From: Rufibacter hautae
GTDB lineage: Bacteria > Bacteroidota > Bacteroidia > Cytophagales > Hymenobacteraceae
Direction of reading: 5' to 3'
DNA length: 64,000 nucleotides
Assembly: GCF_008271695.1 (NCBI RefSeq)
Contig: NZ_VKKY01000003.1
Span: forward strand, 310,001-374,000
Below the pieces are notes generated by a model. It was not told the DNA's origin. It did not search any database and worked only from the letters and a program-made list of their open reading frames with translations. The position numbers and the translations under genes were made by a program. Below are positions 6,401-62,842 of this stretch, piece after piece. Every line of letters begins with the position of its first letter. Positions within the stretch are counted from its first letter, which is position 1.

Positions 6401-6440
6401 CGCTTTTAAGCTGATTTCCTGAAAATGAGCCTAAAACAGA
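6401..6440. repeat. P1 palindrome copy, degenerate
   Basis: Arms GCTTTTAAGCTGATTT and GAGCCTAAAAC around a short loop; 130 bases upstream of the hscA start. Confidence 0.6.
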
Positions 6441-6468
6441 ATTGGCAAAGAAATGATGCAACGGGTTC

Positions 6469-6670
6469 TTCGCTGGCGCGAGCGTCCCGCTCGTGTCCGC
6501 GCACATGGCAGATCACCCTTTCTGTCATCCTGAAAGGACCTTGTGAGCGAACAGTAGAAGCGTGTCTAAAAGGCTTTTCTAGTTTGGCCACAAGATCTTT
6601 CCAAGAGGACAAATTGGGGAAGGCTTTCAGAAATGCGTGCGGACACGAGCTGCAAGCTCGCGCCAGCGAA
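6469..6670. mobile_element. M2 element: nested inverted-repeat, MITE-like
   Basis: A 202-bp non-coding element. The outer ends are perfect 15-bp inverted repeats (TTCGCTGGCGCGAGC at 6469-6483; complement at 6656-6670). Just inside is a second pair (GCTCGTGTCCGCGCA at 6489 and TGCGGACACGAGC near 6638). Nested inside that is a third, imperfect 23-bp pair at 6523-6545 (starts TGTCATCCTGAAAGG) and 6589-6611. No reading frame of note. A second, truncated copy lies at 51353-51507. It fills most of the 485-base gap between hscA and tldE. Confidence 0.7.
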
Positions 6671-6676
6671 TAAAGA

Positions 6677-6724
6677 AAAAGCGTTTCAGGCCTGATTTTG
6701 TTGAATCAGACCTAAAACGCTTTT
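6677..6724. terminator. P1 palindrome acting as terminator of tldE
   Basis: AAAAGCGTTTCAGGCCTGATTT pairs with the complementary right arm AATCAGACCTAAAACGCTTTT, two mismatches. On the minus strand it ends in a T run 30 bases after the tldE stop, so it is a good intrinsic terminator as well as a member of the P1 family. Confidence 0.8.
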
Positions 6725-6754
6725 CTGTTGAAATGAAATTCTCAGTGAACTTTC

Positions 6755-8089
6755 TTACACCGCATCAGACAAACTGCTGAAGGTGAAATCCCGGATTTTA
6801 AGCGGAGGCAGCAGGTAGTTGTTTGAGGATTCGCCGCTTACTACGCGCTCGGTTTTACCCAAGGCTTCAAGATTGTTGAGCATGATGATGGGGCTTTCGT
6901 TGAAGCGGAAGTTCTTGACGGCGTGTTTGATCTTGCCGTTTTCAATGTAGAAGGTTCCGTCGCGGGTGAGGCCGGTGAGCAGGAGTGTCTGCGGGTCCAC
7001 GCTTCTGATGTACCACAGGCGGGTCACCAGAATGCCTTTCTGCGTTCCTTTGATCATGTCTTCCAGGCTTTGGGTACCGCCCTGCATGATGGCCGAGTTA
7101 GGAAAAGGCACCGGCGTTATTTTCTTCTGCTGCGCCCAAAAGCGGGAGACCGGAATCTGTTTCACCACGCCTTTGTCTATCCAGGTGACTTTGTTCAGGG
7201 CCTGTCCGTCCTGCGCCCAAGGAGAGGTGGGTAGCTCGGGGTGCGCCGGGTCTGAGTAGATGGTCACGCGTTCGTCCACCAGTTTCTGCCCAAGTTTGTT
7301 TCCGCCTCCGGCCTTACTTAAAAAGCTGCGGCCTTCGTCGGCAGAGCGGGCATCCATGTTGAAGAACAGGTTCTCCAGCATCACGGCTACAGCGGCCGGT
7401 TCCAGAATCACGGTGTACTTGCCCGGTTCCAGGGCCTTGGCATCTTTGGAGCCAGTGGCTTTAATTACGGCAATATTGGAGGCCGTGGCGGTGTTCAGTT
7501 TGTTCACGTCATTGAAGCCCCGCGAAACATACCCAGAGCCGGTGCCGTCTGGCGTGCGCACGGTAAGGGAAAAGTCCACCCCGGTGTCTGTATTGTAGGC
7601 GAACAGCCCTTTGCTGTTCATCATCGATTGGAACCCTACCGAGTCTTGCAGGTAACCGGCGGCGGTCAGGTTTTTGGCTTTTGCCGCCGAGATGCTTTGC
7701 GCCACCATCTCGGCCCGTTTGTCTGGCGTAATGGCTGCCGTGGCCGCCACGTACGGGCTGGTGGCGATGTATTTCTGCGGACCCAGCACGCCCATATACT
7801 CGGGGTTTTCGGGGGCAAGTTTAGCTAATTCCTCTGAGCGGCGGACCACTTTCTCCAGCGACGCATCGTCAAACTCATTGATGGTAGCGGTGCCCACTTT
7901 CTTCCCAAAAGAGGACTGCACCACCAACGACGTGGTGTGCGCCTCACCTGCGGTAGACACGGAATTGCGCGCGTAGCGCACGTTCCCAGATTTGCTGCCA
8001 TTCAGGTTGGCCTCGCATTCATCGGCTTTACTCAAGGCCATTACCTTCTTCAGGATGGCCTGCGCTTGTTCTTGGGTATATATTGCCAT
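6755..8089 (-). CDS. TldE/PmbA-family protein (TldD partner subunit)
   Basis: Non-catalytic partner subunit of the TldD/TldE metalloprotease, which in E. coli processes microcin B17 precursor and CcdA. From the chosen start (MAIYTQEQAQ) it is 444 residues. The U62/PmbA fold is recognisable from the N-terminal antiparallel domain (residues 1-190) and the C-terminal half with VILEPAAVAVMLENLF, GGGNKLGQ, and LWYIRSVDPQTLLLTGLTRDGTFYIENGKI. No HExxxH motif is present, as expected for TldE. The frame is open 29 codons further upstream, but that stretch lies in a repetitive hairpin, so ATG 8089 is preferred. tldD lies immediately upstream on the same strand. Confidence 0.87.
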   Translation of the reverse strand: MAIYTQEQAQAILKKVMALSKADECEANLNGSKSGNVRYARNSVSTAGEAHTTSLVVQSSFGKKVGTATINEFDDASLEKVVRRSEELAKLAPENPEYMGVLGPQKYIATSPYVAATAAITPDKRAEMVAQSISAAKAKNLTAAGYLQDSVGFQSMMNSKGLFAYNTDTGVDFSLTVRTPDGTGSGYVSRGFNDVNKLNTATASNIAVIKATGSKDAKALEPGKYTVILEPAAVAVMLENLFFNMDARSADEGRSFLSKAGGGNKLGQKLVDERVTIYSDPAHPELPTSPWAQDGQALNKVTWIDKGVVKQIPVSRFWAQQKKITPVPFPNSAIMQGGTQSLEDMIKGTQKGILVTRLWYIRSVDPQTLLLTGLTRDGTFYIENGKIKHAVKNFRFNESPIIMLNNLEALGKTERVVSGESSNNYLLPPLKIRDFTFSSLSDAV

Positions 8090-8128
8090 TGGTAGATACG
8101 TCTGATGTTGATAGAAACTGCTTGTTTT

Positions 8129-8202
8129 AGTTCTGAGTCTTGAGTTCTGAGTCCTGAGTTGTAAAAAATGACTCAAGACTATGGACTCAGAACTCAGGAC
8201 TG
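8129..8202. repeat. Hairpin built of GAGTTCTGAGTC-type short repeats
   Basis: The left arm holds AGTTCTGAGTCTTGAGTTCTGAGTCCTGAGTT-like repeats (8129-8160) and the right arm holds their complement, ACTCAAGACTATGGACTCAG followed by AACTCAGGACT. A heptad-like unit TTCTGAG/TCCTGAG recurs within each arm. It sits in the 121-base gap between tldD and tldE, on their shared transcript. Confidence 0.65.
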
Positions 8203-8210
8203 GAAAACCG

Positions 8211-9842: not shown

Positions 9843-9984
9843 GGTGGAAGAATTTAAGGGTTAGTTACTTAAATGTAAGAATTTCAGGCGCATTTGCAAG
9901 GAAGTTGTATTGGTTATTTTCTATATACAAGCTAGTGTGAGAGGCCGGTTCCTTTCTACTCCTTGATGTAAGTTTGAATTCTAA

Positions 9985-10161: not shown

Positions 10162-10167
10162 CCATAA

Positions 10168-10196
10168 AAAATCCCACCTCTAGTGGAGATGGGATT
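10168..10196 (-). terminator. Terminator of the zinc metalloprotease gene
   Basis: AAATCCCACCTC pairs with GAGATGGGATTT around TAGT with one wobble pair. Read on the minus strand it runs into TTTTTT, about 35 bases after the stop codon. Confidence 0.8.
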
Positions 10197-10198
10197 TG

Positions 10199-10229
10199 GG
10201 GCTGTTTTCAGGAAAACAGGGGTAAAACG
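10199..10229. repeat. P1 palindrome copy abutting a stop codon
   Basis: GGGCTGTTTTCAGGAAAACAG plus GGGTAAAAC; the core CTGTTTTC/GAAAACAG is perfect and ends at the stop codon of the metalloprotease gene. Confidence 0.65.
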
Positions 10230-12662
10230 CTATTCGCAGCCTATCATGTCCAGAGAGCCGATGGGCGCGCCGGGTGGAAGGTCTTTGTGGAGTTGCGGTT
10301 TGGCATCTTGAGGTTTTTTCAGGCGGTCTAAGGCTAAGAGGGCATTGGCTTTCACCGCATCGGTAGAGGAGTTGGTTAGTTTCTTGGCCTTTTTCTCCAG
10401 GTTGTTCAGTTGCAGCAGGGCAGCGGCACGGGCCGCGTAGGAGGCCTCTTCATTTTGGGAAAGAGCCATGAGGTGCGTGAGAACCAATTGCTGGGTGAGC
10501 AGCTGCACCTGTCCGTTCATGCCCGAGGCGCCTTTGCTTTCCCAGGTTTGGTCAATGATCTGGTTCAGGACCTCGTCCAGGCCTAAGCCGTTACCCCGGG
10601 CTTTCAACTCCACCAGCCGCGTGGCGCGCTCCGGGTGGAATAGGAAAGAGAGCGTGAAATCTGCCGAAGCCTCGGCAGCAGCCAGCGGGTCAAAGGTGAG
10701 GCCGGTGCGTTTGTCAAACAGTTCGCGGGTAGGAGACCAACCAGCGGGCCGGGGCGGAATGGCAGCGATGATTTTCTCCGGTAGCGCCAGCACGTTCGGC
10801 TCAAGGGTAGAGAGCAAAGCATCCAGGGCTTTTTGCTGCTCGGCCTCGGGCACAAACTCCGTTACCAACTGTCCGTCGCCGCGCGCCGCGTAGGTGTAGT
10901 TCAGACCTCCCACTAGTTTGGCGGCCGCTTCTACCTGGTAGCGGTGGTAGTTGTAAATGGGTACCAGCGCGTCTTCTAACATGGCCATAGGAACACCCGG
11001 CTTGATATTGTTCTCCCCGAAACGCTCCAACGCTTTCTGCCGCACACTTAACACATGCTTCAGTTCTTCAGAGGCGCTGGCGCCATTGTCCCAGAGATGG
11101 GCCTGCGGATGCGCGCCGCCCGGTGCGCGGGAATCTCGGTCAGAGATGAACTGGAGACCGCGTTTGTGGGCCTCGCGCAATTGCTGGTCCAAGGCCTGTT
11201 GTTCGTTCGTGCCGGCCGGGAAATGCTGGTAGCCAAACTTGATGGCTTCTTTGTCCCATTCACCAATGCCCACAGCGTAAGCATCAGAAAGGTCAATGTC
11301 GCCGTTCGCAGTCAGTTTCACGGTAGGATGGGGGTAATCCATGACGCTGGCGCGGTTGCTCACGCTGGCGGCGTAGTTGTGCATGATGCCCAGGGTGTGG
11401 CCCAGTTCATGGGCAGACAGTTGCCGCAGGCGGGAAAGCGCCATTTTCATCATCTCGGGATTAGCGGGTTTGCCTTGTTCATAAGGAGCTAGCAGCCCCT
11501 CAGCGATGAGAAAATCCTGGCGCACGCGCAGGGAGCCCAGGCTTACGTGCCCTTTGATGATCTCGCCGGTTCTGGGGTCGGTGACGGTGGCGCCGTAAGA
11601 CCAGCCCCGGGTGCTGCGGTGCACCCACTGGATCACGTTGTAGCGTACGTCCATGGGGTCCGCATCTACGGGCAAAATTTCCACTTTGAACGCGTCTTTG
11701 TAACCGGCGGCCTCAAACGCCTGCGCCCACCAGCGAGCACCTTCCAAGAGCGCTGATCTGATGGGTTCCGGCGCGGCATGGTCTACGTAGTACACAATGG
11801 GTTCCACGGCCTCAGAGACGGCAGCGGCCGGGTTCTTCTTCTGGAGGCGGTGCCGGGCAATGAAGCGCTTCACAATAGGCTGGTCCACGGGCGTGCTGAA
11901 ATCAAAGTACTCAATCCCGAAGTAGCCGCCTCTGGGGTCCATGGCGCGGGGCGTGTACTTGGCGTCGGGGAGTTGCACAAACGAGTGGTGCTGGCGCAAC
12001 GTGATGGCCTGCGCCGAGGGCGTGACGCTGCGTACGAAATTGCCGGCATCCTCGCCGCCCACAAACGTGAGCGTGGCCTCAAACTCTGAGTTCTGCGGAA
12101 AGTTCTTGGTGCGGGGCAAATACATAACCGAGCGGTTGGCATCTAGGCGGTAAGAACCCTGGCGGCTGCGCCGGATGCTGCCCACCACGTCATGGGCATC
12201 GCGGAGGATGAACTCGGTGGCGTCTACCAAGACCTTGTCGCCTTCCGTGGCCTCCACCTTGAATCCCCACAGCGCCGACTGCGCGAACGACTGCGCCACG
12301 GCCTGTTCCTCGGCGGGGTTGCCGTTCATGGCGCGGTAGCCCTGGTTGGGTTCCATGAGCAGCACCTTGGGGCCAACCTTATGGAAATACACCACGTGCT
12401 CGCCGCCCAACTGCCCGCGGTCTAGCCCGATGTCGTTGGAGCCGAGGCCGGCGGCCAGGGAGTTCACATACAAGAATTGCTGGTCTAGTTTATCAATCTC
12501 CAGCAGGATACGGCCGGTGGCCTCATCCCAGTAAAACGGGAAATAACCGCTGAACTTCTGCATGCCTGCGATTTTGCCTGCAATGCCCGCGGGTTTGTTT
12601 TGGGCCCAAATTTGGGAAAGTGCCAGAAAAGCGAAAAGAAAGGAGAGTAGCGTTTTGCGCAT
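10230..12662 (-). CDS. Secreted zinc-dependent metalloprotease (DUF5117/DUF5118 type)
   Basis: An 810-residue secreted zincin. The chosen start MRKTLLSFLFAFLALSQIWAQ gives a clean signal peptide; 20 further codons upstream (MFLIHYLIQ...) add nothing like it. The N-terminal part (about 25-330) matches the DUF5118/DUF5117 style (FSGYFPFYWDEATGRILLEI; YLPRTKNFPQNSEFEATLTF). The catalytic motif is HELGHTLGIMH, a complete HExxHxxGxxH at residues 418-428, followed by the Met-turn-like SVMDYPHP. The C-terminal ~350 residues are helical. Substrate is unknown. No operon partner is evident. Confidence 0.9.
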   Translation of the reverse strand: MRKTLLSFLFAFLALSQIWAQNKPAGIAGKIAGMQKFSGYFPFYWDEATGRILLEIDKLDQQFLYVNSLAAGLGSNDIGLDRGQLGGEHVVYFHKVGPKVLLMEPNQGYRAMNGNPAEEQAVAQSFAQSALWGFKVEATEGDKVLVDATEFILRDAHDVVGSIRRSRQGSYRLDANRSVMYLPRTKNFPQNSEFEATLTFVGGEDAGNFVRSVTPSAQAITLRQHHSFVQLPDAKYTPRAMDPRGGYFGIEYFDFSTPVDQPIVKRFIARHRLQKKNPAAAVSEAVEPIVYYVDHAAPEPIRSALLEGARWWAQAFEAAGYKDAFKVEILPVDADPMDVRYNVIQWVHRSTRGWSYGATVTDPRTGEIIKGHVSLGSLRVRQDFLIAEGLLAPYEQGKPANPEMMKMALSRLRQLSAHELGHTLGIMHNYAASVSNRASVMDYPHPTVKLTANGDIDLSDAYAVGIGEWDKEAIKFGYQHFPAGTNEQQALDQQLREAHKRGLQFISDRDSRAPGGAHPQAHLWDNGASASEELKHVLSVRQKALERFGENNIKPGVPMAMLEDALVPIYNYHRYQVEAAAKLVGGLNYTYAARGDGQLVTEFVPEAEQQKALDALLSTLEPNVLALPEKIIAAIPPRPAGWSPTRELFDKRTGLTFDPLAAAEASADFTLSFLFHPERATRLVELKARGNGLGLDEVLNQIIDQTWESKGASGMNGQVQLLTQQLVLTHLMALSQNEEASYAARAAALLQLNNLEKKAKKLTNSSTDAVKANALLALDRLKKPQDAKPQLHKDLPPGAPIGSLDMIGCE

Positions 12663-12663
12663 G

Positions 12664-12690
12664 TTTTTGGAAAAGTAAGCCTGAAACGGA
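12664..12690. repeat. P1 half-copy directly before a start codon
   Basis: On the minus strand CCGTTTCAGGCTTACTTTTC is followed within a few bases by the metalloprotease ATG. It keeps one P1 arm and the loop but not the second arm. Confidence 0.55.
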
Positions 12691-12782
12691 AAGAGCTGGA
12701 TAAGGTAGTGAATTAAGAACATAGGGGCAAGGCTATGTTTATGGGACTGCTAGTTGCCCGTATAAAGGTGTTGTTATAGAAA

Positions 12783-12812
12783 GGCGTTTCAGGCTTGTTT
12801 TCCAGAAATTAA
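12783..12812. repeat. P1 half-copy
   Basis: GGCGTTTCAGGCTTGTTTTC is one full P1 arm; the second arm has decayed (AAATTAAGTTAAAT). Confidence 0.55.
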
Positions 12813-12823
12813 GTTAAATATAA

Positions 12824-15622: not shown

Positions 15623-15701
15623 TGTCTTGCTAGAGCGTTAAATCCTACAGAATAGATGTCAAGGTATTTACCTCAAGCTTCTTCTTTTTGCCCTCTTTTC
15701 C

Positions 15702-15721
15702 TAAAAATAGGCCCTAAACAG
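15702..15721. repeat. P1 half-copy
   Basis: CCTAAAAATAGGCCCTAAAC, the right half of P1, ends 7 bases beyond the stop of the downstream minus-strand dehydrogenase gene. Confidence 0.5.
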
Positions 15722-18554: not shown

Positions 18555-18620
18555 GAGGGTTCTTTGACGTACTTTAATCTGATTTCTATTTGCTTAGCGA
18601 TTGTGTTTCTATGGGTTCTT

Positions 18621-18832
18621 ATGCATTCGTAGTCCGTTTCCGCTGGCGTGGCGCCATAGTTGGCGTGGGTGCATAAGCTGTATTGTTCCATAGCTGGGCT
18701 CCGAGCGCTCACGGCCGCGAGGCCTCGCCTTCCGGCCTCGCGCTGTGTTCTTTTCCTTTCCTCGGCTAAAGCCATCGGAATGTTGGGCGTTGCCCAACAC
18801 CGGAAAAGCACAAGGCGCTCAACCGAAAGGCT
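18621..18832 (+). repeat. Composite repeat block A, left copy
   Basis: A 212-bp non-coding block, from ATGCATTCGTAG to AACCGAAAGGCT. An inverted copy lies at 22226-22444. The most conserved part is TAGCTGGGCTCCGAGCGCTC followed by the GC-rich hairpin CGCGAGGCCTCGCCTTCCGG. Contains a small perfect hairpin GTTGGGC/GCCCAAC at 18782-18798. Confidence 0.75.
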
Positions 18833-18889
18833 GGAATTGGGTTCTTTCAACAGCTACAGTGTTTAGCAGTATGTCCGTTTCCAAATTAG

Positions 18890-19013
18890 AGATTCTCCCC
18901 TTGAGGGGAGCGTAGAGGGGTGTTTACACCTGCTGGTCATTGCATTTGCTCTCCAGTTTCATGGTTCAAGTCTGTGACTTGGACCCAACATGACCGGCAG
19001 TTTGCAACTGCCG
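18890..19013 (+). repeat. Composite repeat block B, left copy
   Basis: Three pieces in a row: an M1-type end (AGATTCTCCCCTTGAGGGGAG to GTGTTTACACC), the hairpin GGTTCAAGTC-TGT-GACTTGGACC (18963-18985), and the near-perfect palindrome CGGCAGTTTGCAACTGCCG (18995-19013). An inverted copy with the same order reversed is at 22035-22160. Blocks A and B together fill most of the 780-base gap 18555-19334; the remaining ~300 bases before the TPR gene hold one P1 copy and presumably its promoter. Confidence 0.75.
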
Positions 19014-19163
19014 TGAGCAGAGGCTTACGGGAAGCAGATGATTCCTCTTAATCATTAAAAGAGTAAGAAGAATATATTACCCCGCCGGTTCAACCAATTC
19101 CTAATCTTCAAATCTATCCGCATAGGGGAGGCAACGGACCTGAGTGTCCTGTCTATGTGTTTT

Positions 19164-19194
19164 GGGGCTGTTTTGCGCGGAACAGACCTAAAAC
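19164..19194. repeat. P1 palindrome copy, degenerate
   Basis: GGGGCTGTTTTGCGCGGAACAG followed by ACCTAAAAC; arms recognisable, loop GCGCG unusual. 140 bases before the TPR gene. Confidence 0.55.
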
Positions 19195-19334
19195 ATCCTG
19201 TGTATTCCCGACTAATTTACCGGCCTAAGGCAACCTCAAAGCCTGATGGTGCATCTTCCAGGTAAATAGGTGTACACGGCTCTTTTTCTGGAACGGATTT
19301 TGCCTTTTGCTGAATATAAGATACGGCTAATATT

Positions 19335-21698: not shown

Positions 21699-21752
21699 TC
21701 CACAAGCAGAACGGCCTTTCCTAACTAAGAGAGGCCGTTCTGCTTGTGGATT
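21697..21752 (+). terminator. Long hairpin after the TPR gene, no T run
   Basis: A perfect 21-bp stem (begins AATCCACAAGCAGAACGG) starting inside the TAA stop codon, 14-base loop. The expected T tract is absent (ATTAAAGC follows), so it may protect the 3' end of the message rather than terminate alone. Confidence 0.65.
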
Positions 21753-21760
21753 AAAGCTTA

Positions 21761-21797
21761 CTGTTTATAAGCTGTTTTTAGAAATCAGGGGCTAAAC
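21761..21797. repeat. P1 palindrome copy
   Basis: CTGTTTATAAGCTGTTTTTAG then AAATCAGGGGCTAAAC; arms complementary apart from three positions. Confidence 0.6.
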
Positions 21798-21940
21798 CTG
21801 AATGATTTTTTTGATAAAAGTAGGGGCACCTCTTGTGGGTGTCTTCTTTATTGGTTCAATAGGTTGCGCGGGGAACGTAGGAGACAAGTCGGTGCTTGGT
21901 CTCTACTATTGTGCAATTGATAGGACATGGATCGGGAAAT

Positions 21941-22017
21941 GTAAACACCCCTCTTTAAAGCTACGCTCGCTGTCCCAAACCCTCGTTTGGGCAATTCTCA
22001 AGGGGAGAATCTGCTTT
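21941..22017. repeat. Extra M1-type fragment
   Basis: GTAAACACCCCTC at one end and CTCAAGGGGAGAATCTGC at the other, with CCCAAAC-CCTC-GTTTGGG hairpin between. Same end sequences as block B and the element at 62531, in the orientation of block B'. Confidence 0.6.
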
Positions 22018-22034
22018 TAGTGGAATCATAACCA

Positions 22035-22160
22035 CGGCAGTTGCAAACTGCCGGGCATAGTGGGTCCAAGTCACAGACTTGAACCATGGAACTGGGGAAT
22101 AACCGCCATGGCCAGCAGGTGTAAACACCCCCCCTCGCCCCCCTCAAGGGGGGAGTCTGC
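22035..22160 (-). repeat. Composite repeat block B', right copy (inverted)
   Basis: Reverse complement of block B: palindrome CGGCAGTTGCAAACTGCCG (22035-22053), hairpin GGTCCAAGTC-ACA-GACTTGAACC (22063-22085), then GTGTAAACACCCC to GGGGAGTCTGC. Confidence 0.75.
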
Positions 22161-22225
22161 AGTGGAACAGGTTCTACTTTTTTGTATATAAAACTCCTTG
22201 CTGCAGTTGGCTCATTCCCGTTTAC

Positions 22226-22444
22226 AGCCTTTCGGTTGAGCGCCTTGTCAGGTTCCGGTGCCGCAGGCATTGCGACTGAAAGGAGCAAAGGAAGCTGGCG
22301 CAGCGCGAGGCCGGAAGGCGGGGCCTCGCGGCCGTGAGCGCTCGGAGCCCAGCTATGAAACAACCCAGCTTATGCACAAACGCAAACAGCGGCGCCACGC
22401 TAGCAAAAGCGGACTACGCAAACACAAACAGTCTACGAATGCAT
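22226..22444 (-). repeat. Composite repeat block A', right copy (inverted)
   Basis: Reverse complement of block A, from AGCCTTTCGGTTGAGCGCCT to TACGAATGCAT, with the central GC-rich hairpin conserved. It ends 22 bases before the ppx stop codon. With B' and the fragment at 21941 it accounts for nearly all of the 768-base gap. Confidence 0.75.
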
Positions 22445-22466
22445 CCAAAACTCAAAGAAAGAAGAC

Positions 22467-23540: not shown

Positions 23541-23588
23541 AAAGCCGTTTTAAGCCGATTTTCTGCAAATAGGGCTTAAAACGGCTTT
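23541..23588. repeat. P1 palindrome copy, near-perfect
   Basis: AAAGCCGTTTTAAGCC pairs with GGGCTTAAAACGGCTTT around a 15-base interior containing GATTTTCTGCAAAT. It lies between the ppx start and the methyltransferase stop and gives a T-rich exit on the minus strand, so it may end the methyltransferase transcript. Confidence 0.75.
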
Positions 23589-24602: not shown

Positions 24603-24645
24603 CTGCGTTTCAGCCACGTTTTTGAGAAAACATCCGTTAAACAGG
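24603..24645. repeat. P1 palindrome copy, degenerate
   Basis: TGCGTTTCAGCCACGTTTTT then GAGAAAACATCCGTTAAACAG. First of two copies 77 bases apart in this 389-base gap. Confidence 0.55.
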
Positions 24646-24679: not shown

Positions 24680-24719
24680 GCGTTTCGGCCTTGTTTTTAG
24701 GGAAAGAGCCGCTAAACGG
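24680..24719. repeat. P1 palindrome copy, degenerate
   Basis: GCGTTTCGGCCTTGTTTTTAG then GGAAAGAGCCGCTAAACG. Nothing else is recognisable in the gap 24513-24901 apart from the promoter region expected before dapF. Confidence 0.55.
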
Positions 24720-26587: not shown

Positions 26588-26825
26588 CAATCCAAAACTT
26601 ACGGGAGATGACTGAAAATTTTCCATCTTTGGTCATCTGAAAATCTGAAAAAAAGTAGCTTTTTGGTTTTTGGGCTGTTTTCTTAAAAAAAGACAAAAAA
26701 CAGTTCTGCTGTGGGAAAGTGGTGACCTGAAATGAATCTGGTTTCTGTACTTTTGGCGGTACCTTTAGGTGCTGGGCGTCATTGCCTGTGCTTGCCTTTG
26801 AGAAGCCGTATTTCACCTGCTGCCT

Positions 26826-28909: not shown

Positions 28910-28949
28910 CCGTTTCAAGGTTCTTTTTAAGAAAACAGCCCCAAAGCAG
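28910..28949. repeat. P1 palindrome copy, degenerate
   Basis: GCCGTTTCAAGGTTCTTTTTAAG then AAAACAGCCCCAAAGCAG, in the 172-base gap before glf. Confidence 0.55.
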
Positions 28950-32524: not shown

Positions 32525-32576
32525 AAGTCCGTTCGGGGCCTGTTTATGGAAAAACAGGCCCCAAACGGACTTTTCA
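32525..32576 (+). terminator. P1 palindrome acting as terminator of the glycan cluster
   Basis: AAGTCCGTTCGGGGCCTGTTT pairs with AAACAGGCCCCAAACGGACTT, one mismatch in 21 pairs, followed by TTTTC. It lies 20 bases after the stop codon. The rest of the 672-base gap 32505-33176 holds one more P1 copy and the secA promoter; I see no gene in it. Confidence 0.85.
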
Positions 32577-32969
32577 TTTTCCTTGGGTCTTATAGGATGA
32601 ACCCATTCTAACTAGCTAGGGAAATCCGTAGCAGGTTATCAAACAGGTAATTCCGTCAGGTGGTCTTTAAAATCCATAGAAGGAGGAAAGTTGCTTGTCT
32701 AGTCTCGCGTTTTAACCTCAGATTTTAGAAACTATGCGGTAAGCAAAATCCCGAAGCGAAAAACATCAGCTTAGCAATTTCTGAAGTGCCGAATCCATTT
32801 TCAGCCAATGGAATCTTAGCGAAAATCATTCCTCTTATAGAAGCAGGGCGGGATTATTTCCCTTGGGTGAACATCGTCAGAAATTTGGCTGTTCTCTTTG
32901 GTGAGAAAAGAAAGGGCTTTCCTGCTGGGTTGGCGATGGGGAATCTGGTCAACTTTAGGGGATCTCTGG

Positions 32970-33003
32970 TTTGGAGCTGTTTTCGAAAAAGGAGCCTTTA
33001 AAC
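32970..33003. repeat. P1 palindrome copy, degenerate
   Basis: TTTGGAGCTGTTTTCGAAAAAG then GAGCCTTTAAAC. Confidence 0.55.
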
Positions 33004-37778: not shown

Positions 37779-37802
37779 GACATTACACCGTCTGGTTTTT
37801 AT

Positions 37803-37857
37803 ATCCGCCGTTTAGGCTTGTTTTTAGAAAACAGGCGCTAAACGGCGGATTTTTTTG
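37803..37857 (+). terminator. P1 palindrome acting as terminator of secA-deoC-lipoprotein
   Basis: ATCCGCCGTTTAGGCTTGTTTT pairs with AAAACAGGCGCTAAACGGCGGAT (two mismatches) and runs into seven Ts, 25 bases after the stop codon. Confidence 0.88.
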
Positions 37858-38042
37858 TGCTTGCTTGCCTGCTGTCAAGCCCCCTTCGGCAGCAGATGGA
37901 AGAGTTGGCCTGTACGGCACCCCAAAGGAGACAGAGAGCTTTGTGCCTTGTGCAAAGGGGGGTGATGTGGAGTTGCGTCTGACTGCTGAAAAGCTTGTAT
38001 AAAAGCCTTTCTTAAGGTAATACATCCGAGTAAATACGGAGT

Positions 38043-38080
38043 GTTCTACTTGTGTTTTGCGGGGGGGGGGGGGGTAGAAC
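38043..38080. repeat. Homopolymer of 14 G inside a small hairpin
   Basis: A run of 14 G (38061-38074) lies between GTTCTAC (38043-38049) and its exact complement GTAGAAC (38074-38080). It sits 98 bases before the small gene at 38172. The rest of the 393-base gap 37779-38171 holds the terminator and GC-rich degenerate sequence (37860-38020) without a credible gene. Confidence 0.7.
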
Positions 38081-38171
38081 TACGGAAAATAAAGGGAAGA
38101 CTACCTAATTAGCTCAGGGGAGTTAAAAAATTAAAAGAGAGCTTTGTAGTTTTAAGTAAGAGCATTGTGTA

Positions 38172-38450
38172 ATGGATAAACAGGACCTGATCTTACTTCA
38201 TCTTTTTGCGAAAGTGCGGGGGTATCGGGAGCCTGAGGACCACCCCGTCTCTTCCGCCCAGGTAGCCTTGGAAAACCACCTATCGGTAGAGCAAACCTTG
38301 GATCTTTGCTATGACCTTGCCCAGGAAGGCTTTGTCGCCATCAGTCCTTTGAGCATCCCGCCTTTGGTTTATCTTACCTTAACAGGCCTAGCCAGGGTAA
38401 GAAGATTAGAAGCCGATCTTGGCTTTTTAAGTCATAAATCGGCTTCCTAA
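38172..38450 (+). CDS. Small protein, unknown (possible winged helix)
   Basis: 92 residues, start ATG 38172. The sequence has the rhythm of a small helical DNA-binding domain: LILLHLFAKVRGYREP, then VSSAQVALENHLSVEQTLDLCYDLAQEGFVAI and LTLTGLARVRRLE, that is helix, helix, putative recognition helix, strand/wing. I do not recognise a family. A 14-G tract lies upstream, so expression could vary. It is not part of an obvious operon. Confidence 0.6.
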   Translation: MDKQDLILLHLFAKVRGYREPEDHPVSSAQVALENHLSVEQTLDLCYDLAQEGFVAISPLSIPPLVYLTLTGLARVRRLEADLGFLSHKSAS

Positions 38451-38613
38451 CCGCCAGCGAGCTTTGCATCAAAAGCACATCTCCTTTCCAGACGATACAT
38501 CGCGCATGGCGGTTCCTTAGAGTGAACTTGCTTGAAGGAAGAGCGTGAAGCAGGGGAGAACCTTACCGAATCCAAATTCTGGAAACTTGCACGAAAATGG
38601 TGAACGTAAAGCG

Positions 38614-38656
38614 TGCCGTTTAGGGACTGTTTTCTGTAACCAGGCCCTAAACGGCA
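38614..38656. terminator. P1 palindrome, near-perfect, just before the M20 peptidase gene
   Basis: TGCCGTTTAGGGACTGTTTT and its right arm CAGGCCCTAAACGGCA; outer 13 pairs perfect. It is 163 bases after the small gene and 48 before the peptidase ATG, with no T run, so its role as terminator is doubtful. Confidence 0.6.
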
Positions 38657-38703
38657 ATCTCGGTTTATAGCCGTACCTTTGCCCTAGTCGTTTGCCTTTT
38701 ACT

Positions 38704-39921: not shown

Positions 39922-39976
39922 AGTCTTCTGTTTAGAGCCTGCTTTTGGAAAAATAGGTTCTAAACAGAAGACTTTT
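39922..39976 (+). terminator. P1 palindrome acting as terminator of the M20 gene
   Basis: AGTCTTCTGTTTAGAGCCTG pairs with the right arm AGGTTCTAAACAGAAGACT, followed by TTTTGTTTT. Confidence 0.85.
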
Positions 39977-40173: not shown

Positions 40174-40669
40174 TGAGGCGCTAGCCTCAAAACTACTCTG
40201 TCGGATTTACCTTCTACTCCCTTCCTTACAACCTTTTAGTTGCAGTCGCGGCCTGCGGGCGTTTGTCACTTTTCTCCTTGATGAGAAAAGTAACCAAAAG
40301 AATCAAGAAGCCTCAAACTCGCTGACGCTCGGACAGTGAGGCTTCAGTCAAGGTACCACCTGGCTAAAGCCTTCTGTTTCATAGTTCTCGTAGGCCATTA
40401 CTGTTTGAACTGTTCTTCCGTGCGGCAGGCCGTGCCTCGGCCTCACTGTAGGCCTTCGTCCCGGCCCGCCGCAGGAAAAGATTATCATGTCATCTTGCTG
40501 AATGATGGGGCTGCTTTCAAGGGTGTCCACAAGAGGTACTCCTATATAATCCTTGCTGTTCTCTTTCACCGCAGTTGGTGTTGTAACCAATAACCTGAAC
40601 TGTAGTCAGTAACCAACTGACGCATTCTGGAACTCCCCTCTTGGGATGGGTAGGGGTGGGTTCCTGTTT

Positions 40670-40701
40670 CAAGCCGCTAATTAGAAAATAAGCCTTAAAC
40701 T
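40670..40701. repeat. P1 half-copy
   Basis: AAGCCGCTAATTAGAAAATAAG then CCTTAAAC; degenerate. Confidence 0.45.
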
Positions 40702-41558: not shown

Positions 41559-43058
41559 ATGAAAACGAAACAGCTAATGTTGGGGCTGATGCTCTCTGCT
41601 ATGGTAGGTGGAGGCGTAGCCGTTGGAAGTTACAAACTGTTGGACGATGACGCCCCTGTGAACGGGCAGCAGTTGCCCAATACCAACGTGAGGTATACCA
41701 GTGCCATGCGCACCTCAGATGTGGTGGTACCGGAAGGCCTCAATTTCGTGACCTCGGCTGAGTTGGTGACTCCGGCGGTGGTACACGTGACGACAGAGTA
41801 CAAAGTGCAGGCGCGCCGCGGACCAAGTGCCAGCGAGATGCACCCTTTCTTCCGCGATTTCTTCGGAGATGACTTTGAAGGATATCAGCGCCAGCAGCAA
41901 GGCCCGGCCATGGGCTCCGGTTCTGGGGTGATCATTGCCTCTAACGGATACGTGGTGACCAATAACCACGTGATTGACCGCGCCGATAAAATCCAGGTGA
42001 TTCTGGACGATAAGCGTACGTATGAGGCCACTCTGGTAGGTACGGATCCAAACACAGACATCGCCCTGCTGAAGATCAACGCTGACAATTTGCCTGCCCT
42101 GCGCTACGGCAACTCTGACAACGTGAAAGTGGGCGAGTGGGTGCTGGCCGTAGGGAACCCCTTCAACCTGAACTCAACCGTGACCGCTGGTATCGTGAGC
42201 GCCAAAGGCCGAAACGTTGGTATTCTGCAAGGTGCCGGTAACATGAGCGTGGAGTCGTTCATCCAGACCGATGCCGCCGTGAACCCAGGTAACAGTGGGG
42301 GAGCTTTGGTAAACCTGAACGGTGACCTGATTGGGATCAACACCGCCATTGCGTCTCAGACCGGTTCTTTCGCCGGTTATTCCTTCGCGGTGCCTTCTTC
42401 TATTGTGAGCAAAGTGGTGGATGACCTTCTCAAGTTTGGGGAAGTGCAGCGTGCTTTGCTAGGGGTGCAGATGCAGGAAGTTGACTCCGATCTGGCCAAA
42501 GAGAAAAGCCTGAAAACCCTGAACGGGGTGTACGTGGCCGGTTTCTCTGAAAGCAGCGCCGCCAAATCTGCCGGTATTGAGCAAGGAGACGTGATCACTG
42601 AGATTAACGGCGTGAAAGTGAACACCGGTGCTCAGTTACAAGAGCAGGTGACCCGCTATCGTCCTGGCGATAAGATCAAGGTGACGTACCTGCGTGGTGG
42701 CAGCAACAAAACTGCCAACGTAACCCTACGTAACGCCAGCGGCAGCACCGAGATCGTGAAGCGTGACCCTAACTCCAAAAAGGCCATGACCATTGACGGG
42801 GCCAAGTTTGAGGCAGCCAGCAAGCAGGAATTGAACAAACTGGATATACCGGGTGGAGTTAAAATCACTGGAGTGGAGGAAAGTGCTTTCGCCGAGACTG
42901 GTATGAAAGACGGTTTCATCATCACCAGCATTGACAAAGCGCCTACCAACGCGCCTCAGGACGTAGACAAAGTGCTGAAAGGCACCCGTCGCGGCGGACT
43001 CCTCATTGAAGGGGTTTACCCAGATGGCCGTCGTGCTTACTACGCCTTGGGTCGCTAA
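41559..43058 (+). CDS. Periplasmic Do-type serine protease (HtrA/DegP-like)
   Basis: Trypsin-fold protease/chaperone that handles misfolded envelope proteins. N-terminal membrane anchor or signal (LMLGLMLSAMVGGGVAVGSY). The catalytic triad is complete: His137 (NNHVID), Asp167 (DPNTDIALL), Ser246 (NPGNSGGAL). Two PDZ domains follow, at about 300-390 (YVAGFSESSAAKSAGIEQGDVITEING) and 410-490 (ITGVEESAFAETGMKDGFIITSID). 499 residues, the usual length for Do-like proteases of Bacteroidota. It follows hsp20, so two proteostasis genes are adjacent, but a terminator separates them. Confidence 0.96.
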   Translation: MKTKQLMLGLMLSAMVGGGVAVGSYKLLDDDAPVNGQQLPNTNVRYTSAMRTSDVVVPEGLNFVTSAELVTPAVVHVTTEYKVQARRGPSASEMHPFFRDFFGDDFEGYQRQQQGPAMGSGSGVIIASNGYVVTNNHVIDRADKIQVILDDKRTYEATLVGTDPNTDIALLKINADNLPALRYGNSDNVKVGEWVLAVGNPFNLNSTVTAGIVSAKGRNVGILQGAGNMSVESFIQTDAAVNPGNSGGALVNLNGDLIGINTAIASQTGSFAGYSFAVPSSIVSKVVDDLLKFGEVQRALLGVQMQEVDSDLAKEKSLKTLNGVYVAGFSESSAAKSAGIEQGDVITEINGVKVNTGAQLQEQVTRYRPGDKIKVTYLRGGSNKTANVTLRNASGSTEIVKRDPNSKKAMTIDGAKFEAASKQELNKLDIPGGVKITGVEESAFAETGMKDGFIITSIDKAPTNAPQDVDKVLKGTRRGGLLIEGVYPDGRRAYYALGR

Positions 43059-43094
43059 TTTTGACCTGTTTTGAGAAATATAAGCCCTAAACGG
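43058..43094. repeat. P1 palindrome copy, degenerate
   Basis: TTTTGACCTGTTTTGAGAAATA then TAAGCCCTAAACGG; begins at the protease stop codon. Confidence 0.55.
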
Positions 43095-46301: not shown

Positions 46302-46399
46302 CCCTGGTCGCTGTTTATGGCCTATTTTAGCTAAAAGGATTCTAAAACCCAGACTTGGGCAGATGGTTGCCATATCCTCATAATTGATGTGAAAACAGA

Positions 46400-46433
46400 A
46401 AGGCCCGAACCGTTTTAGAATGGCTCGGGCCTT
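46400..46433 (+). terminator. Hairpin after the SMP-30 gene
   Basis: AAGGCCCGAACC and the right arm GGCTCGGGCCTT form the stem; only a short T-rich tail follows. Confidence 0.7.
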
Positions 46434-46474
46434 CCTGTTTTAGGGCTGTTTTGCAGAAATCGACTGAGAAACGG
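46434..46474. repeat. P1 palindrome copy, degenerate
   Basis: CTGTTTTAGGGCTGTTTTGCAG then AAATCGACTGAGAAACGG; left arm good, right arm decayed. It lies 65 bases before the DUF4442 ATG. Confidence 0.5.
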
Positions 46475-50764: not shown

Positions 50765-50789
50765 AAGCACCAGCATTTGATCATGGGGG

Positions 50790-50820
50790 GAGCGGACCTA
50801 AACAGGTCCGCTTCTTTTTT
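50790..50820 (+). terminator. Terminator of the sigma operon
   Basis: AGCGGACCT pairs with AGGTCCGCT around AAAC and is followed by CTTTTTT. Confidence 0.9.
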
Positions 50821-50823
50821 GCC

Positions 50824-50863
50824 CTGTTTTTGCCTTATTTTAGGGAAACACGGCTTAAAACAG
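50824..50863. repeat. P1-type palindrome directly before the RidA start codon
   Basis: CTGTTTTTGCC and GGCTTAAAACAG are complementary apart from one base; ends 7 bases before the ATG at 50870. Confidence 0.6.
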
Positions 50864-50869
50864 AAAACC

Positions 50870-51295
50870 ATGGACAAGACACCGCCCGTAATCATACACG
50901 CTTCCCAGGCCCCCGAACCGGTAGGGCTTTACCCGCACGCAAGGAAGGTGGGCAACCTGTTGTTCCTCTCAGGCGTGGGACCCCGCGAGAAAGGCGTGAA
51001 GCAGATCCCCGGCGTGACGCTGGACGAGGCCGGAAACATCACCAGCTATGACATAGAAGCCCAGTGCCACTCGGTGTTCAAGAACGTGCGCACCATATTG
51101 GAGGAAGCCGGCTCGGCTTGGGAGAACCTAGTGGACGTGACCGTGTTCCTCACCAACATGAAAGCGGACTTCCAGACCTACAACCGCCTCTATGCCCAGT
51201 ATTTCCAGGACAGCCAGCCCTGCCGCACCACCGTGGAGGTAAACGCGCTGCCCACCCCCATTGCCATCGAACTCAAGTGCATCGCCACTATTTGA
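50870..51295 (+). CDS. RidA-family (YjgF/2-aminomuconate deaminase-like) protein
   Basis: Reactive imine/enamine deaminase family, cytosolic trimer, 141 residues from ATG 50870 (an upstream ATG in frame at 50777 runs through the terminator and is not credible). Family motifs: GLYPHARKVGNLLFLSGVGPRE, EAGSAWENLVDVTVFLTNMKADF, and CRTTVEVNALPTPIAIELKCIA, with the catalytic Arg in PCRTTVEV and Glu in IAIELKC. The longer first domain (GPREKGVKQIPG) resembles the 2-aminomuconate-deaminase subgroup. Confidence 0.9.
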   Translation: MDKTPPVIIHASQAPEPVGLYPHARKVGNLLFLSGVGPREKGVKQIPGVTLDEAGNITSYDIEAQCHSVFKNVRTILEEAGSAWENLVDVTVFLTNMKADFQTYNRLYAQYFQDSQPCRTTVEVNALPTPIAIELKCIATI

Positions 51296-51352
51296 TTGTT
51301 TGTTTTCAGTTCGATTTCCGGATAACAGCCATAAAGCGACACAACTGCAAAC

Positions 51353-51507: not shown

Positions 51508-51691
51508 AAGAGGAAGAGGCGGCCTTTAGGTGCTAGGAACCGCCGAGGTTCGGACTAAACGGGAATTTTGGGATAGTTTCCTAAAGGACGATGGGTGTAA
51601 AATAGAACCCCAACCTCATTGCTAATTGTTGGCTTTTGGCAGGCAATATTCTGGCGGTTTTCGCTTTCTGAGTATAGGTTTTCCCTTTTCA

Positions 51692-51720
51692 AGGCCGGTT
51701 TCTAAAAAACAGCCCTGAAA
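51692..51720. repeat. P1 half-copy
   Basis: CCGGTTTCTAAAAAACAGCCCTGAAAC; right arm clear. Confidence 0.5.
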
Positions 51721-51826
51721 CAATAAATACTGGAAGCAGTTTCCTATTTTGCCTGGGTAGTTAGACGCGTGTCTAACTGCAGGAAAGAACCTATGGCGGT
51801 TCTTTGATGATCTGAAGTGATTTTTA

Positions 51827-58012: not shown

Positions 58013-58051
58013 GCCGTTTACTAGCTTCTTTTTGAAAAACAACCTGAAAAC
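58013..58051. repeat. P1 palindrome copy directly before a start codon
   Basis: GCCGTTTACTAGCTTCTTTTTG then AAAAACAACCTGAAAAC; ends 5 bases before the nucleotidyltransferase ATG. Confidence 0.5.
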
Positions 58052-58056
58052 CCCCT

Positions 58057-58986: not shown

Positions 58987-58987
58987 G

Positions 58988-60136: not shown

Positions 60137-60143
60137 TGCCTTT

Positions 60144-60788
60144 ATGAAGCAATTAGACGTGCCGCTTTTGTTCCGGTTAGACCGCGACTCTGGCTTACAG
60201 GAGGTCTCAGAACAGTTGGACCACCTGGAGAAGCATGCCATTGACACTGCGCCGTGGCCCGATTATCCTTATAAACCCTCGGTGACTTTCTCGGTGGCCC
60301 ACAGCAACGACTGTTTCTTTGTGAAGTTCTACGTGGCGGAGGACGACATTAGGGCGGTGTTCCGCAAAACCAATGATCCCGTGTACCGTGACAGCTGTGT
60401 GGAACTGTTCATCGCGTTCAATGACGAAAGAGCTTATTACAACCTGGAGTTCAACAGCCTGGGCTCCTGCCTAATGGCTTATGGACCGGATAAGGAAAAC
60501 CGCCAGTTTCTCTCCGAGGCTGTTATCAGGGAGATAAAACGTTACGCGCAGCTCTCAGTGGGAGAGCACCCCGAAGCCGCCGTAAAGTGGGAACTGACCC
60601 TGGTGATTCCGGTGGAGGTTTTCTGCTTCCATGAGTTTACCTCTCTGAACGAGCAGACCTGCAAAGTGAACTTCTACAAGTGCGGCGATGACTTGCCCAA
60701 GCCCCATTACCTTACCTGGAATACCATAAAGGCTGCCGCGCCCAACTTCCATTTGCCGGAGTATTTCGGGGAGTTGCAGTTTCTGTAG
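60144..60788 (+). CDS. CBM9-like carbohydrate-binding protein, cytosolic
   Basis: 214 residues from ATG 60144, 7 bases after the kinase stop. The body looks like a CBM9/DOMON-like beta sandwich: WPDYPYKPSVTFSVAHSNDCFFVKFYVAEDDIRAV, DPVYRDSCVELFIAFND, YYNLEFNSLGSC, ELTLVIPVEVF, and a C-terminal HYLTWNTIKAAAPNFHLPEYFGELQFL. No signal peptide, unlike most CBM9 proteins. Often seen as a stand-alone gene beside sugar kinases. Function not established. Confidence 0.8.
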   Translation: MKQLDVPLLFRLDRDSGLQEVSEQLDHLEKHAIDTAPWPDYPYKPSVTFSVAHSNDCFFVKFYVAEDDIRAVFRKTNDPVYRDSCVELFIAFNDERAYYNLEFNSLGSCLMAYGPDKENRQFLSEAVIREIKRYAQLSVGEHPEAAVKWELTLVIPVEVFCFHEFTSLNEQTCKVNFYKCGDDLPKPHYLTWNTIKAAAPNFHLPEYFGELQFL

Positions 60789-60803
60789 GCGTCAATTTTC
60801 ACC

Positions 60804-60846
60804 CGGCCGTTTAGGATCAGATTCTAAGTAAATAGCCTTAAAACCC
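60804..60846. repeat. P1 palindrome copy, degenerate
   Basis: GGCCGTTTAGGATCAGATTCTAAG then TAAATAGCCTTAAAAC. Confidence 0.5.
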
Positions 60847-60942
60847 AGATGCCGCTCAGAGAGCGGTTTGGCCTTTCAATGGAGCGCTTAGGTAGCCTGA
60901 TTTCTTTAGTAAGAAGCTTAATTCTAGAATCCAAATAGAAAA

Positions 60943-62385: not shown

Positions 62386-62406
62386 CCTCTTTACTGATAA
62401 AGGCAG

Positions 62407-62470
62407 AAACCCGGTTCTGTTTAGAGGCTGTTCACATAAAAACAGCCTCTAAACAGAATCGGGTTTTTTA
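62407..62470 (+). terminator. P1 palindrome acting as terminator of the GH109-like gene
   Basis: AAACCCGGTTCTGTTTAGAG and its right arm CTCTAAACAGAATCGGGTTT, one bulge, followed by a run of Ts. Confidence 0.9.
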
Positions 62471-62530
62471 TTGAACGTCAATTGGGAACTTGAAGGATAC
62501 TTACCAGTTCTACTAATTGCGCTTGCTAAG

Positions 62531-62703
62531 TGCAGATTCTCCCCTTGAGGGGAGCGCAGAGGGGTGTTTACTTCTGCCAGTTTACGAATTGCTAGCAATG
62601 CTTTGCCTCTCTTACTAGAAGATACCATTTGTAAGTAGCTCTAAAATGTGTGCTTCCCTGTGTAAACACCCCTCTTAATCTCCCCTCAAGGGGAGAATCT
62701 GCA
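62531..62703. mobile_element. M1 element, 173-bp copy
   Basis: Left end TGCAGATTCTCCCCTTGAGG to 62554 is repeated as an exact 24-bp inverted copy at 62680-62703; a second inverted pair follows inside (AGAGGGGTGTTTAC at 62558-62571 and GTAAACACCCCTCT at 62662-62675). Same length class and C/G-rich ends as 9985-10161 and block B. It occupies the middle of the 480-base gap 62386-62865, which also holds two P1 palindromes. Confidence 0.75.
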
Positions 62704-62808
62704 TTTGAGGCGCAGTTGGCAAGAGGAGAAACATTATTGCCACGGGAAGGTGTCTTGGATCGCTTCCCTAGAATCTAAATCACCAAGTACATAAAAGCAC
62801 ATAAAACA

Positions 62809-62842
62809 TTTCGGGCCTGCTTTTCTCAAAACAGGCCCGAAA
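62809..62842. terminator. P1 palindrome, near-perfect, after the DUF4832 gene
   Basis: TTTCGGGCCTG-CTTTT and AAAACAGGCCCGAAA pair over 15 bases around CTC; on the minus strand it follows the stop codon by 23 bases but no T run is seen. Confidence 0.7.

Follow-up and report, generated by a model that had tools for sequence, protein, structure and literature searches.

Why does the same short palindrome recur in so many intergenic regions of a bacterial chromosome, and what keeps it there? The question is raised by a stretch of 64,000 nucleotides from Rufibacter hautae (assembly GCF_008271695.1, contig NZ_VKKY01000003.1, positions 310,001 to 374,000; hereafter the window, meaning this whole stretch), in which an earlier note, made from the sequence alone, had recognised a dispersed inverted repeat termed P1. 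Dispersed bacterial palindromes are usually explained as mobile repetitive extragenic palindromes (REPs), as uptake signals or as terminators. The analysis described here favours a different answer, namely that P1 is, on balance, probably a vertically inherited site, common to the whole genus, at which a putative symmetric protein recognises double-stranded DNA, that the site lies at the boundaries of transcription units, and that some copies have been co-opted as intrinsic terminators. The same places are kept while the spelling shifts as a set in some species, so P1 looks like a protein docking site and not like a simple hairpin or a jumping repeat.

Shape and abundance of P1

P1 is a 36-bp dyad, GTTT-N2-GGSCYG-TTTT-NNNN-AAAA-CRGSCC-N2-AAAC, the centre of which usually measures 4 nt. 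It was modelled as two learnt halves (16 + 4 + 16 bp) with a score threshold, the model being trained on the same sequence that it scans; expectation-maximisation with a free prior for the half-site was abandoned in favour of this thresholded model after it had drifted to T-rich sequence. Gene calls throughout are simple open reading frame (ORF) calls or tblastn projections. The window holds 38 copies at 15 bits or above and 35 at 20 bits or above, the reversed sequence none, and the 15-mer arm with up to three mismatches matches 21 times against 2.2 expected, a count reached in 0 of 100 shuffles. Outside the gene list lie 29 of the 35 stronger copies, in line with the earlier count of about 29; six matches inside called ORFs (12597, 16942, 20299, 31266, 43996 and 58460) were excluded from the copy table. 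The claim that nearly every intergenic region carries P1 stands for a majority of them (22 of the 32 gaps exceeding 60 bp, at 15 bits or above) and not for nearly all, and the elements, said to begin at 6 kb, start already at 3,865, ahead of position 6,401. The four stems singled out in the earlier note (32525, 37803, 39922 and 62407) were recovered within 2 bases, each with a T-run. Rfam gave no match in the window at gathering score.

Beyond the window, the first genome sample comprised 464 kb (the window and twenty 20-kb stretches of the same genome), a non-random sample placed after some arm matches had been seen. Its intergenic parts contain 223 copies, against 11 in Markov-shuffled intergenic DNA, with a centre of exactly 4 nt in 181 of them, and scaling gives approximately 2,670 copies per 5.84-Mb genome. 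A contiguous 224 kb of the genome under study (G000) holds 105 copies, or 4.7 per 10 kb, a density matching that of the non-random sample. Stretches of 200-224 kb from each of seven genomes (G000, G014, G005, G004, G012, G013 and G006, the set used below wherever seven genomes are mentioned) carry 4.0-5.3 copies per 10 kb, with none in the reversed control of any of them. Arm, model, shuffled and reversed controls all agree on a dispersed palindrome whose copy number lies far above chance.

Distribution among genomes

An exact core pattern, GTTT-N9-TTT-N4-AAA-N9-AAAC, was counted together with the same pattern read backwards as control. This genome has 633 such cores and each of the 15 other genus members searched has 186-1,561, compared with 0-5 in the 43 non-genus genomes of the first search; the backwards pattern gives 0-5. 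When the search was widened to 291 genomes of the order, four of them from the genus, the other 287 returned 0-15 cores; the maximum of 15 belongs to a single genome (control 8), the next highest count is 6, and controls reach 10. No P1 of at least 16 bits was found at 16 secA loci of sister genera, and 80 other Bacteroidota loci totalling 1.53 Mb gave 2 matches of at least 18 bits. P1 is thus restricted to the genus among the genomes searched. The genome with 15 cores (G151, same order, another family) carries an inner GTTTTGGGC...GCCCAAAAC in several of them, perhaps belonging to another repeat family. A word-pair search for an analogous dyad in sister genera found at most 2 copies of any word pair in G018 (200 kb) and at most 1 in G017 (197.5 kb, narrower spacing range), against 31 in G000 and 65 in G004 as positive controls; the 'reversed' set of this search is no true negative control, because a reversed dyad stays a dyad.

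Placement relative to genes

The surroundings of secA, compared in 16 genomes, contain 14-25 copies per 25-44 kb. In all 16 genomes a copy lies 20-35 bp after the stop codon upstream of secA and a copy lies 164-177 bp before secA, the two being one and the same in two genomes in which the gap is short. Similar constancy is seen elsewhere in the window: the copy overlapping a stop codon at 43057..43092 has the same place in 14 of the 15 genomes having the region, the one at 38618..38652 lies 36-46 bp ahead of an M20 peptidase start in 15 of 15, the counterpart of 19159..19194 stands 132-158 bp ahead of the start in 11 of 12, and the divergent region of 24607..24642 holds P1 in 16 of 16. Five other regions near secA never hold it (0/12, 0/16, 0/15, 0/9 and 0/7 genomes). 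Occupancy was all-or-none in 36 of 58 orthologous intergenic regions of the seven genomes, against 1.9 expected at a uniform rate that ignores gap length and kinship. The 15 '++' groups with sufficient copies show a median positional scatter of 3 bp relative to the upstream stop and of 2 bp relative to the next start; the corresponding values are 6 and 6 bp in four '+-' groups and 2 and 1 bp in three '-+' groups.

P1 density per kb is 1.46 in divergent, 3.65 in tandem and 4.09 in convergent regions. Among 142 gaps of 100-300 bp, 45 are empty, 88 contain one copy and 9 contain two, a distribution much evener than random (variance/mean 0.42). TAnnTTTG is a promoter box of the Bacteroidota type; in 104 tandem regions with one copy its frequency per kb is 2.79 from P1 to the next start (0.81 in antisense) and 1.27 from the stop to P1 (0.89 in antisense). 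Judged by its placement relative to stops and promoter-like boxes, P1 therefore tends to stand between transcription units. Positions 80 bp or more inside conserved genes account for only 18 of 645 copies, and the five of these that were inspected, all from G000, are chance-like or in doubtful ORFs: conserved amino acids plausibly explain those at 20299, at 31266 and at 206691 of the 224-kb stretch, and the other two lie in ORFs interrupted in a sibling. At window positions 37779-38691 and in the orthologues, a possible small gene (near 38.2-38.5 kb) lies between two P1 copies; congeners with a short gap keep only one copy, so DNA gain or loss at this place borders on P1.

Column constraint and dialects

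In alignments of close species, columns 2, 3, 13, 14 and 15 of P1 are 94% identical, and columns 2, 3, 13 and 14 reach 94-99%, compared with 74-80% in the flanks (80% for G000/G014, with 66 of 92 sites aligned, and 74% for G013/G006, with 56 of 83); the variable columns change about as fast as the flanks. The constraint extends to copies with at most 12 pairs, in which the identity of the hard columns (2, 3, 13 and 14 together) in comparisons of close pairs is 0.958, 0.951, 0.988 and 0.995 (53, 54, 21 and 27 sites), against 0.77-0.82 in the flanks and a strict one-branch expectation of 0.905, 0.890, 0.895 and 0.875, which allows for sites having been chosen by their match in one species. Judged from these alignments, base columns are conserved independently of pairing, as for a sequence-specific site in double-stranded DNA. 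The earlier proposal of conservation beyond pairing is borne out, arm conservation not being limited to the pairing constraint: the TTT/AAA columns are kept in copies with poor stems, and a minority of copies nonetheless shows pairing. Half-sites counted at the lowest threshold in the seven genomes number 159-212 per genome within dyads and 22-80 as solitary halves, the latter against 17-63 in a reversed-matrix control.

Some lineages spell other columns in a way of their own. With the hard columns alone used to call sites, the preferred letters in G004 are A76 G85 at columns 4-5 and G77 at column 8, those in G012 are C87 A64 at columns 11-12, and column 5 is T in 86-92% in G006 and G013; a looser spelling is common to most of the remaining genus members. 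In half-sites of G004 and G005 matched by position, column 4 is identical in 4 of 46, compared with 46 of 46 for columns 2-3; in those of G012 and G005, column 11 is identical in 1 of 42, compared with 42 of 42. The dialect columns agree less often than unrelated DNA (25%), so the columns changed together across loci.

Hairpin or double-stranded site

Variation in one half of P1 is nearly independent of that in the other, which gives most copies the look of double-stranded sites. In the seven genomes the mean number of paired positions (of 16) differs by only -0.22 to +0.45 from that of independent halves (observed/independent 10.29/10.10, 10.53/10.16, 12.73/12.28, 12.87/12.90, 12.22/12.18, 12.59/12.59 and 12.38/12.60). 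The 550 copies with placed neighbours comprise 112 of a hairpin class, defined by at least 14 pairs plus an extended stem, 51 with the pairs only and 387 of an open class. Hairpin-class copies peak 15-30 nt after the stop, where 0.72 of 25 tandem copies are found, and in 44 tandem 3'-end copies of this class a T-run (at least 5 T within 8 nt after the stem) is present on the sense side in 52% and on the other side in 5%, as against 8% and 6% in 99 such copies of the open class. A minority of P1 copies behave as intrinsic terminators and the majority as something else; the suggestion that part of the copies double as terminators is accordingly upheld, about half of the hairpin-class copies in tandem 3'-end positions carrying the T-run, which the open class lacks for the most part.

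Several further signals were set aside. A model with orientation (one strong and one weak half) brought no gain over re-paired halves in G000, G014, G005, G013 and G006, and its gain in G004 and G012 (z 8.0 and 5.8) can be explained by site-to-site heterogeneity, such that no direction is claimed. Negative left-right correlations in the open class are partly made by the mismatch-based class definition and were not used. A few copies have perfect locus-specific inverted arms of 13-19 bp and no T-run (for example G013 196802, G004 43964 and G005 100095, in joined-stretch coordinates), which exceeds the needs of a terminator, template switching on the palindrome being one possible origin. Such arms initially looked like a signature of copying; comparison of five examples with a sister species gave a mixed picture (one without a joint match, two with A/T-rich arms containing the T-run, one with shared arms and one uninterpretable), and they were not counted in favour of the docking-site reading.

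Inheritance, transposases and extrachromosomal DNA

Close species share nearly all copies that can be judged. Between G000 and G014, 85 of 105 sites were mapped, 72 having a counterpart, 7 having none and 6 not being judged; between G013 and G006, 64 of 84 were mapped, with 54, 3 and 7, respectively. No clean insertion of a single P1 was recognised in 14 alignments covering four directions, in which the apparent absences come down to decay, to look-alikes in coding sequence or to larger differences. In the more distant species some copies lack a counterpart, so gain of P1 happens over longer times.

The earlier note had named a REP-associated tyrosine transposase (RAYT) tied to copy number as a pointer to the mechanism, and this link does not appear. 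RAYT matches number 0-4 in the eight genus members searched, G006 having none together with 607 exact cores, and the reverse is seen in sister genera, where RAYTs are present and P1 is absent. RAYT was rejected as the source of P1, since copy number does not track it and the immediate flanks of the RAYT genes are other repeats. In G000 two RAYT-like Y1 transposase genes (L029 1252-1842 and L030 1246-1794, both on the minus strand) are each flanked on both sides by inverted repeats of their own, of the type CAAGTTT...AACTTG with an inner AAGTTT/AACTT-type palindrome, and units resembling these flanks recur in long intergenic regions of the window. P1 copies occur near both genes, though the immediate flanking repeats differ from P1. 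REPs are described as ending on one side in an unpaired tag, GTAG or CGTC (PMC3733652). No tag of this kind emerges from P1 in G000, where flank positions 3-10 carry at most 0.08 bits, a measure of flank composition as opposed to a word search; positions 1-2 favour C/T and C in G000, and positions 3-4 favour T in G012 and G004. A REP hairpin is recognised as a single strand, from which covariation of the arms would be expected; in P1 the mean pairing lies close to independence in seven of seven genomes, while column 4 covaries in some of them and a minority of copies has perfect stems. The analogy to REPs or bacterial interspersed mosaic elements (BIMEs), in the RAYT sense, fails on both the transposase link and the flanking tag in G000.

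Copies are also found outside the main contigs. The 20-kb ends of four secondary contigs carry one P1 each, among them L219, which is plasmid-like by the reading of its conjugation-like ORFs; two 7.5-kb contigs carry three each and a 5.3-kb contig none. A phage contig (IMG/VR UViG_2839759663_000002; L218 and L227) contains five copies in 20.6 kb, and one phage copy (L218 1275-1310) is a perfect palindrome directly following an ordinary terminator-like stem between phage genes. A search of plasmids with a 38-base P1 returned 403 records, 401 from Klebsiella, Enterobacter and other enterobacteria and 2 from Serratia or uncultured sources; among the matches listed none covers 80% of the 38-base query, and they were taken as chance.

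Alternative explanations

Several features of P1 are those of a mobile palindrome family, REP-like and moved by a RAYT or another transposase with a preference for gene ends, the dialects being successive waves of which old copies decay. Like REPs and BIMEs, which are palindromes of 20-40 bp, P1 occurs in high copy number between genes, mostly after genes and between convergent or tandem ones, more sparsely in divergent regions and with species-specific spelling; in G004 and G012 several loci share one identical 36-mer or another and consensus matches are overdispersed, some copies are missing from other species, a phage carries P1 even as a perfect palindrome, and a few copies have the long locus-specific arms. 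P1 differs from REPs in having in G000 no conserved end tag, in the near-independence of its halves on average and in a frequency of about one copy per gap. Against mobility stand the lack of a RAYT association (as in G006, in the RAYT-bearing sister genera and at the otherwise flanked RAYT genes of G000), positions common to the whole genus, the nearly complete sharing of judged copies between close species with no clean insertion recognised, and a constraint specific to columns; mobility is an unlikely explanation. That P1 represents neutral relics of an extinct repeat family is barely credible: many copies are indeed imperfect, yet the hard columns lie far above flank identity and the dialect columns agree below the 25% of unrelated sequence.

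The terminator-like copies, with their near-perfect extended stem, frequent T-run at gene ends, strand bias and peak shortly after the stop, could suggest that P1 is merely an intrinsic terminator stem of favoured sequence. This is very improbable, given that 387 of 550 copies are open, with a T-run hardly more frequent than on the other side, that the halves are nearly independent, that copies lie in divergent regions and beside ordinary terminator-like stems, and that the majority of copies, lacking both a good stem and a T-run, still keep the invariant TTT columns, which terminators do not need. A signal for self-recognition or DNA uptake, propagated by molecular drive in the manner of the DNA uptake sequences (DUS) of Neisseriaceae and the uptake signal sequences (USS) of Pasteurellaceae, shares with P1 the thousands of copies, the dialects between relatives and the inverted pairs doubling as terminators; in Neisseriaceae, DUS are described as forming dialects and as occurring in inverted pairs at terminators (PMC3630211). 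The scarcity of P1 on the plasmid-like contig (1 in 20 kb) would also fit. However, P1 occurs as a 36-bp dyad and not as a single half, solitary halves hardly exceeding the control, it is almost absent within genes (18 of 645 copies deep inside), and there is about one copy per gap. Uptake in its usual form, raised as an analogy in the earlier note, thus fails on solitary halves and genic copies, and it is doubtful that P1 acts as a driven self-signal.

A putative reader and points against it

The reading of P1 as a docking site in double-stranded DNA would involve a symmetric (dimeric or tetrameric) sequence-specific protein restricted to the genus. Dialects could arise by a change in the specificity of this reader or by a drive that spreads a preferred spelling, and the function may be to separate neighbouring units, by roadblock, insulation or chromosome organisation, some copies presumably having been co-opted as intrinsic terminators. 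The sites parS, matS, KOPS, Noc and SlmA are short dyads or motifs in double-stranded DNA, each read by one protein. P1 likewise is a short dyad in double-stranded DNA, its reader being putative, and differs from these chromosome-organising sites in its approximately 2,700 copies, nearly all between genes, and in its changing dialects, ParB being single-copy.

A number of observations weigh against this interpretation. No reader was found: HU (PF00216) and ParB (PF02195), the latter present once in each of 16 genomes (eight from the genus and eight outside), were rejected as candidates since neither has a paralog common to the eight members and missing from the eight others. Folding matters for part of the copies, those with 15-16 pairs being in excess of independence in seven of seven genomes (observed/expected 4/0.3, 5/0.3, 24/7.0, 16/11.1, 10/5.5, 34/10.6 and 20/11.9), and the first sample shows covariation at column 4 (z 4.1) and column 5 (z 3.7), that of column 4 recurring in G000, G014 and G005 (z 2.5-3.1). 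Solitary halves lie slightly above control in six of seven genomes (e.g., 78 vs 56 in G014), an excess that decayed dyads could explain. Consensus matches are overdispersed in G004, G012 and G005 (z 13.5, 8.7 and 6.6) and, at 2.7, in G013, with no excess in G000, G014 and G006; block-wise copying would also give overdispersion, which is explained in part because the hairpin class carries the dialect almost fully (adherence in G004 of 0.94-1.00, against 0.52-0.73 in open copies). As for placement, the 1.9 all-or-none regions expected take no account of gap length and kinship, scatter is larger in five '--' groups (10 and 20 bp), and occupancy is lower in divergent regions, of which 6 of 12 never hold P1. 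Finally, retuning thousands of sites by selection alone, without drive, is hard to credit; that so many sites changed in concert asks for drive or for a very effective reader.

P1 copies and other repeats in the window

The copies outside the excluded ORF matches are listed in the table below. Mosaic intergenic blocks at 18555-19334, 21699-22466 and 62386-62865 belong to another repeat family, present in both orientations, with the units GATTCTCCCCTTGAGGGG ... GAGGGGTGTTTACA, GCAGTTTGCAACTGC and GGTCCAAGTCACAGACTTG. An intergenic run of 14 G at 38061-38074 is a possible slippage tract.

Table. P1 copies in the window, with model score and stem features.
Feature	Position	Strand	Details
P1 dyad, open class	3865..3900	.	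33.6 bits, 11/16 pairs
P1 dyad, open class	4372..4407	.	32.6 bits
P1 dyad, open class	6402..6437	.	30.2 bits
P1 dyad, near-perfect, 6-bp stem extension	6683..6718	.	35.5 bits, 13/16 pairs
P1 dyad	10193..10228	.	36.2 bits
P1 dyad just inside 5' end of ORF 10230-12722(-), start perhaps overcalled	12652..12687	.	31.3 bits
P1 dyad, decayed	12786..12821	.	23.1 bits
P1 dyad	15684..15719	.	32.6 bits
P1 dyad, 141 bp ahead of next start	19159..19194	.	35.8 bits
P1 dyad, 3-nt centre	21763..21797	.	29.4 bits
P1 dyad, extended stem	23547..23582	.	30.6 bits, 13/16 pairs, 6-bp extension
P1 dyad, divergent region	24607..24642	.	28.4 bits
P1 dyad, same divergent region as 24607..24642	24682..24717	.	32.2 bits
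P1 dyad	26666..26701	.	34.5 bits
P1 dyad, open class, 33 bp past stop	28912..28947	.	35.6 bits
P1 hairpin/terminator, 26 bp past stop	32531..32566	+	30.5 bits, 14/16 pairs, 6-bp extension followed by T-rich DNA
P1 dyad, open class, 174 bp upstream of secA	32968..33003	.	31.4 bits
P1 hairpin with T-run, stem 37803-37850	37809..37843	+	27.9 bits
P1 dyad, 40 bp ahead of next start	38618..38652	.	31.1 bits
P1 hairpin/terminator, 8-bp extension, then TTTGTTTTA	39930..39965	+	34.4 bits
P1 dyad, weak	40666..40700	.	19.9 bits; same region of G014 has a 29-bit copy
P1 dyad over stop codon	43057..43092	.	26.0 bits
P1 dyad, open class	46313..46348	.	29.7 bits
P1 dyad directly after ordinary terminator-like stem 46392-46441	46437..46472	.	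33.3 bits
P1 dyad near 5' end of ORF 50777-51295, start doubtful	50826..50861	.	27.2 bits
P1 dyad, 6 bp past stop	51302..51337	.	22.7 bits
P1 dyad	51686..51721	.	32.8 bits
P1 dyad at stop codon	53629..53663	.	28.4 bits
P1 dyad	58016..58051	.	25.4 bits
P1 dyad, decayed	60809..60844	.	23.1 bits
P1 hairpin/terminator, 62-bp stem-loop 62406-62467 with T-run	62419..62454	+	32.5 bits, 14/16 pairs
P1 dyad, near-perfect, without T-run	62808..62843	.	39.6 bits

Significance

Among the open-access papers listed on repeats of the genus or family, conservation of REP positions, RAYTs, uptake dialects and bacterial insulators, none describes P1. The availability of 16 related genomes lets position, column-wise constraint and dialect switching be read for such a palindrome, and these point to a genome-wide site in double-stranded DNA. 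A more far-reaching possibility, held only tentatively, is that P1 forms a chromosome-wide boundary system in which one symmetric protein sits on approximately 2,700 dyads, about one per unit boundary, and in which, in some lineages, the reader and its sites change their spelling jointly by way of a drive that retunes thousands of loci; it would be a bacterial parallel to insulator proteins, with a turnover like that of PRDM9. If the docking-site reading is true, P1 would provide a natural experiment on the concerted change in specificity of thousands of binding sites and on the way in which bacteria separate neighbouring transcription units.

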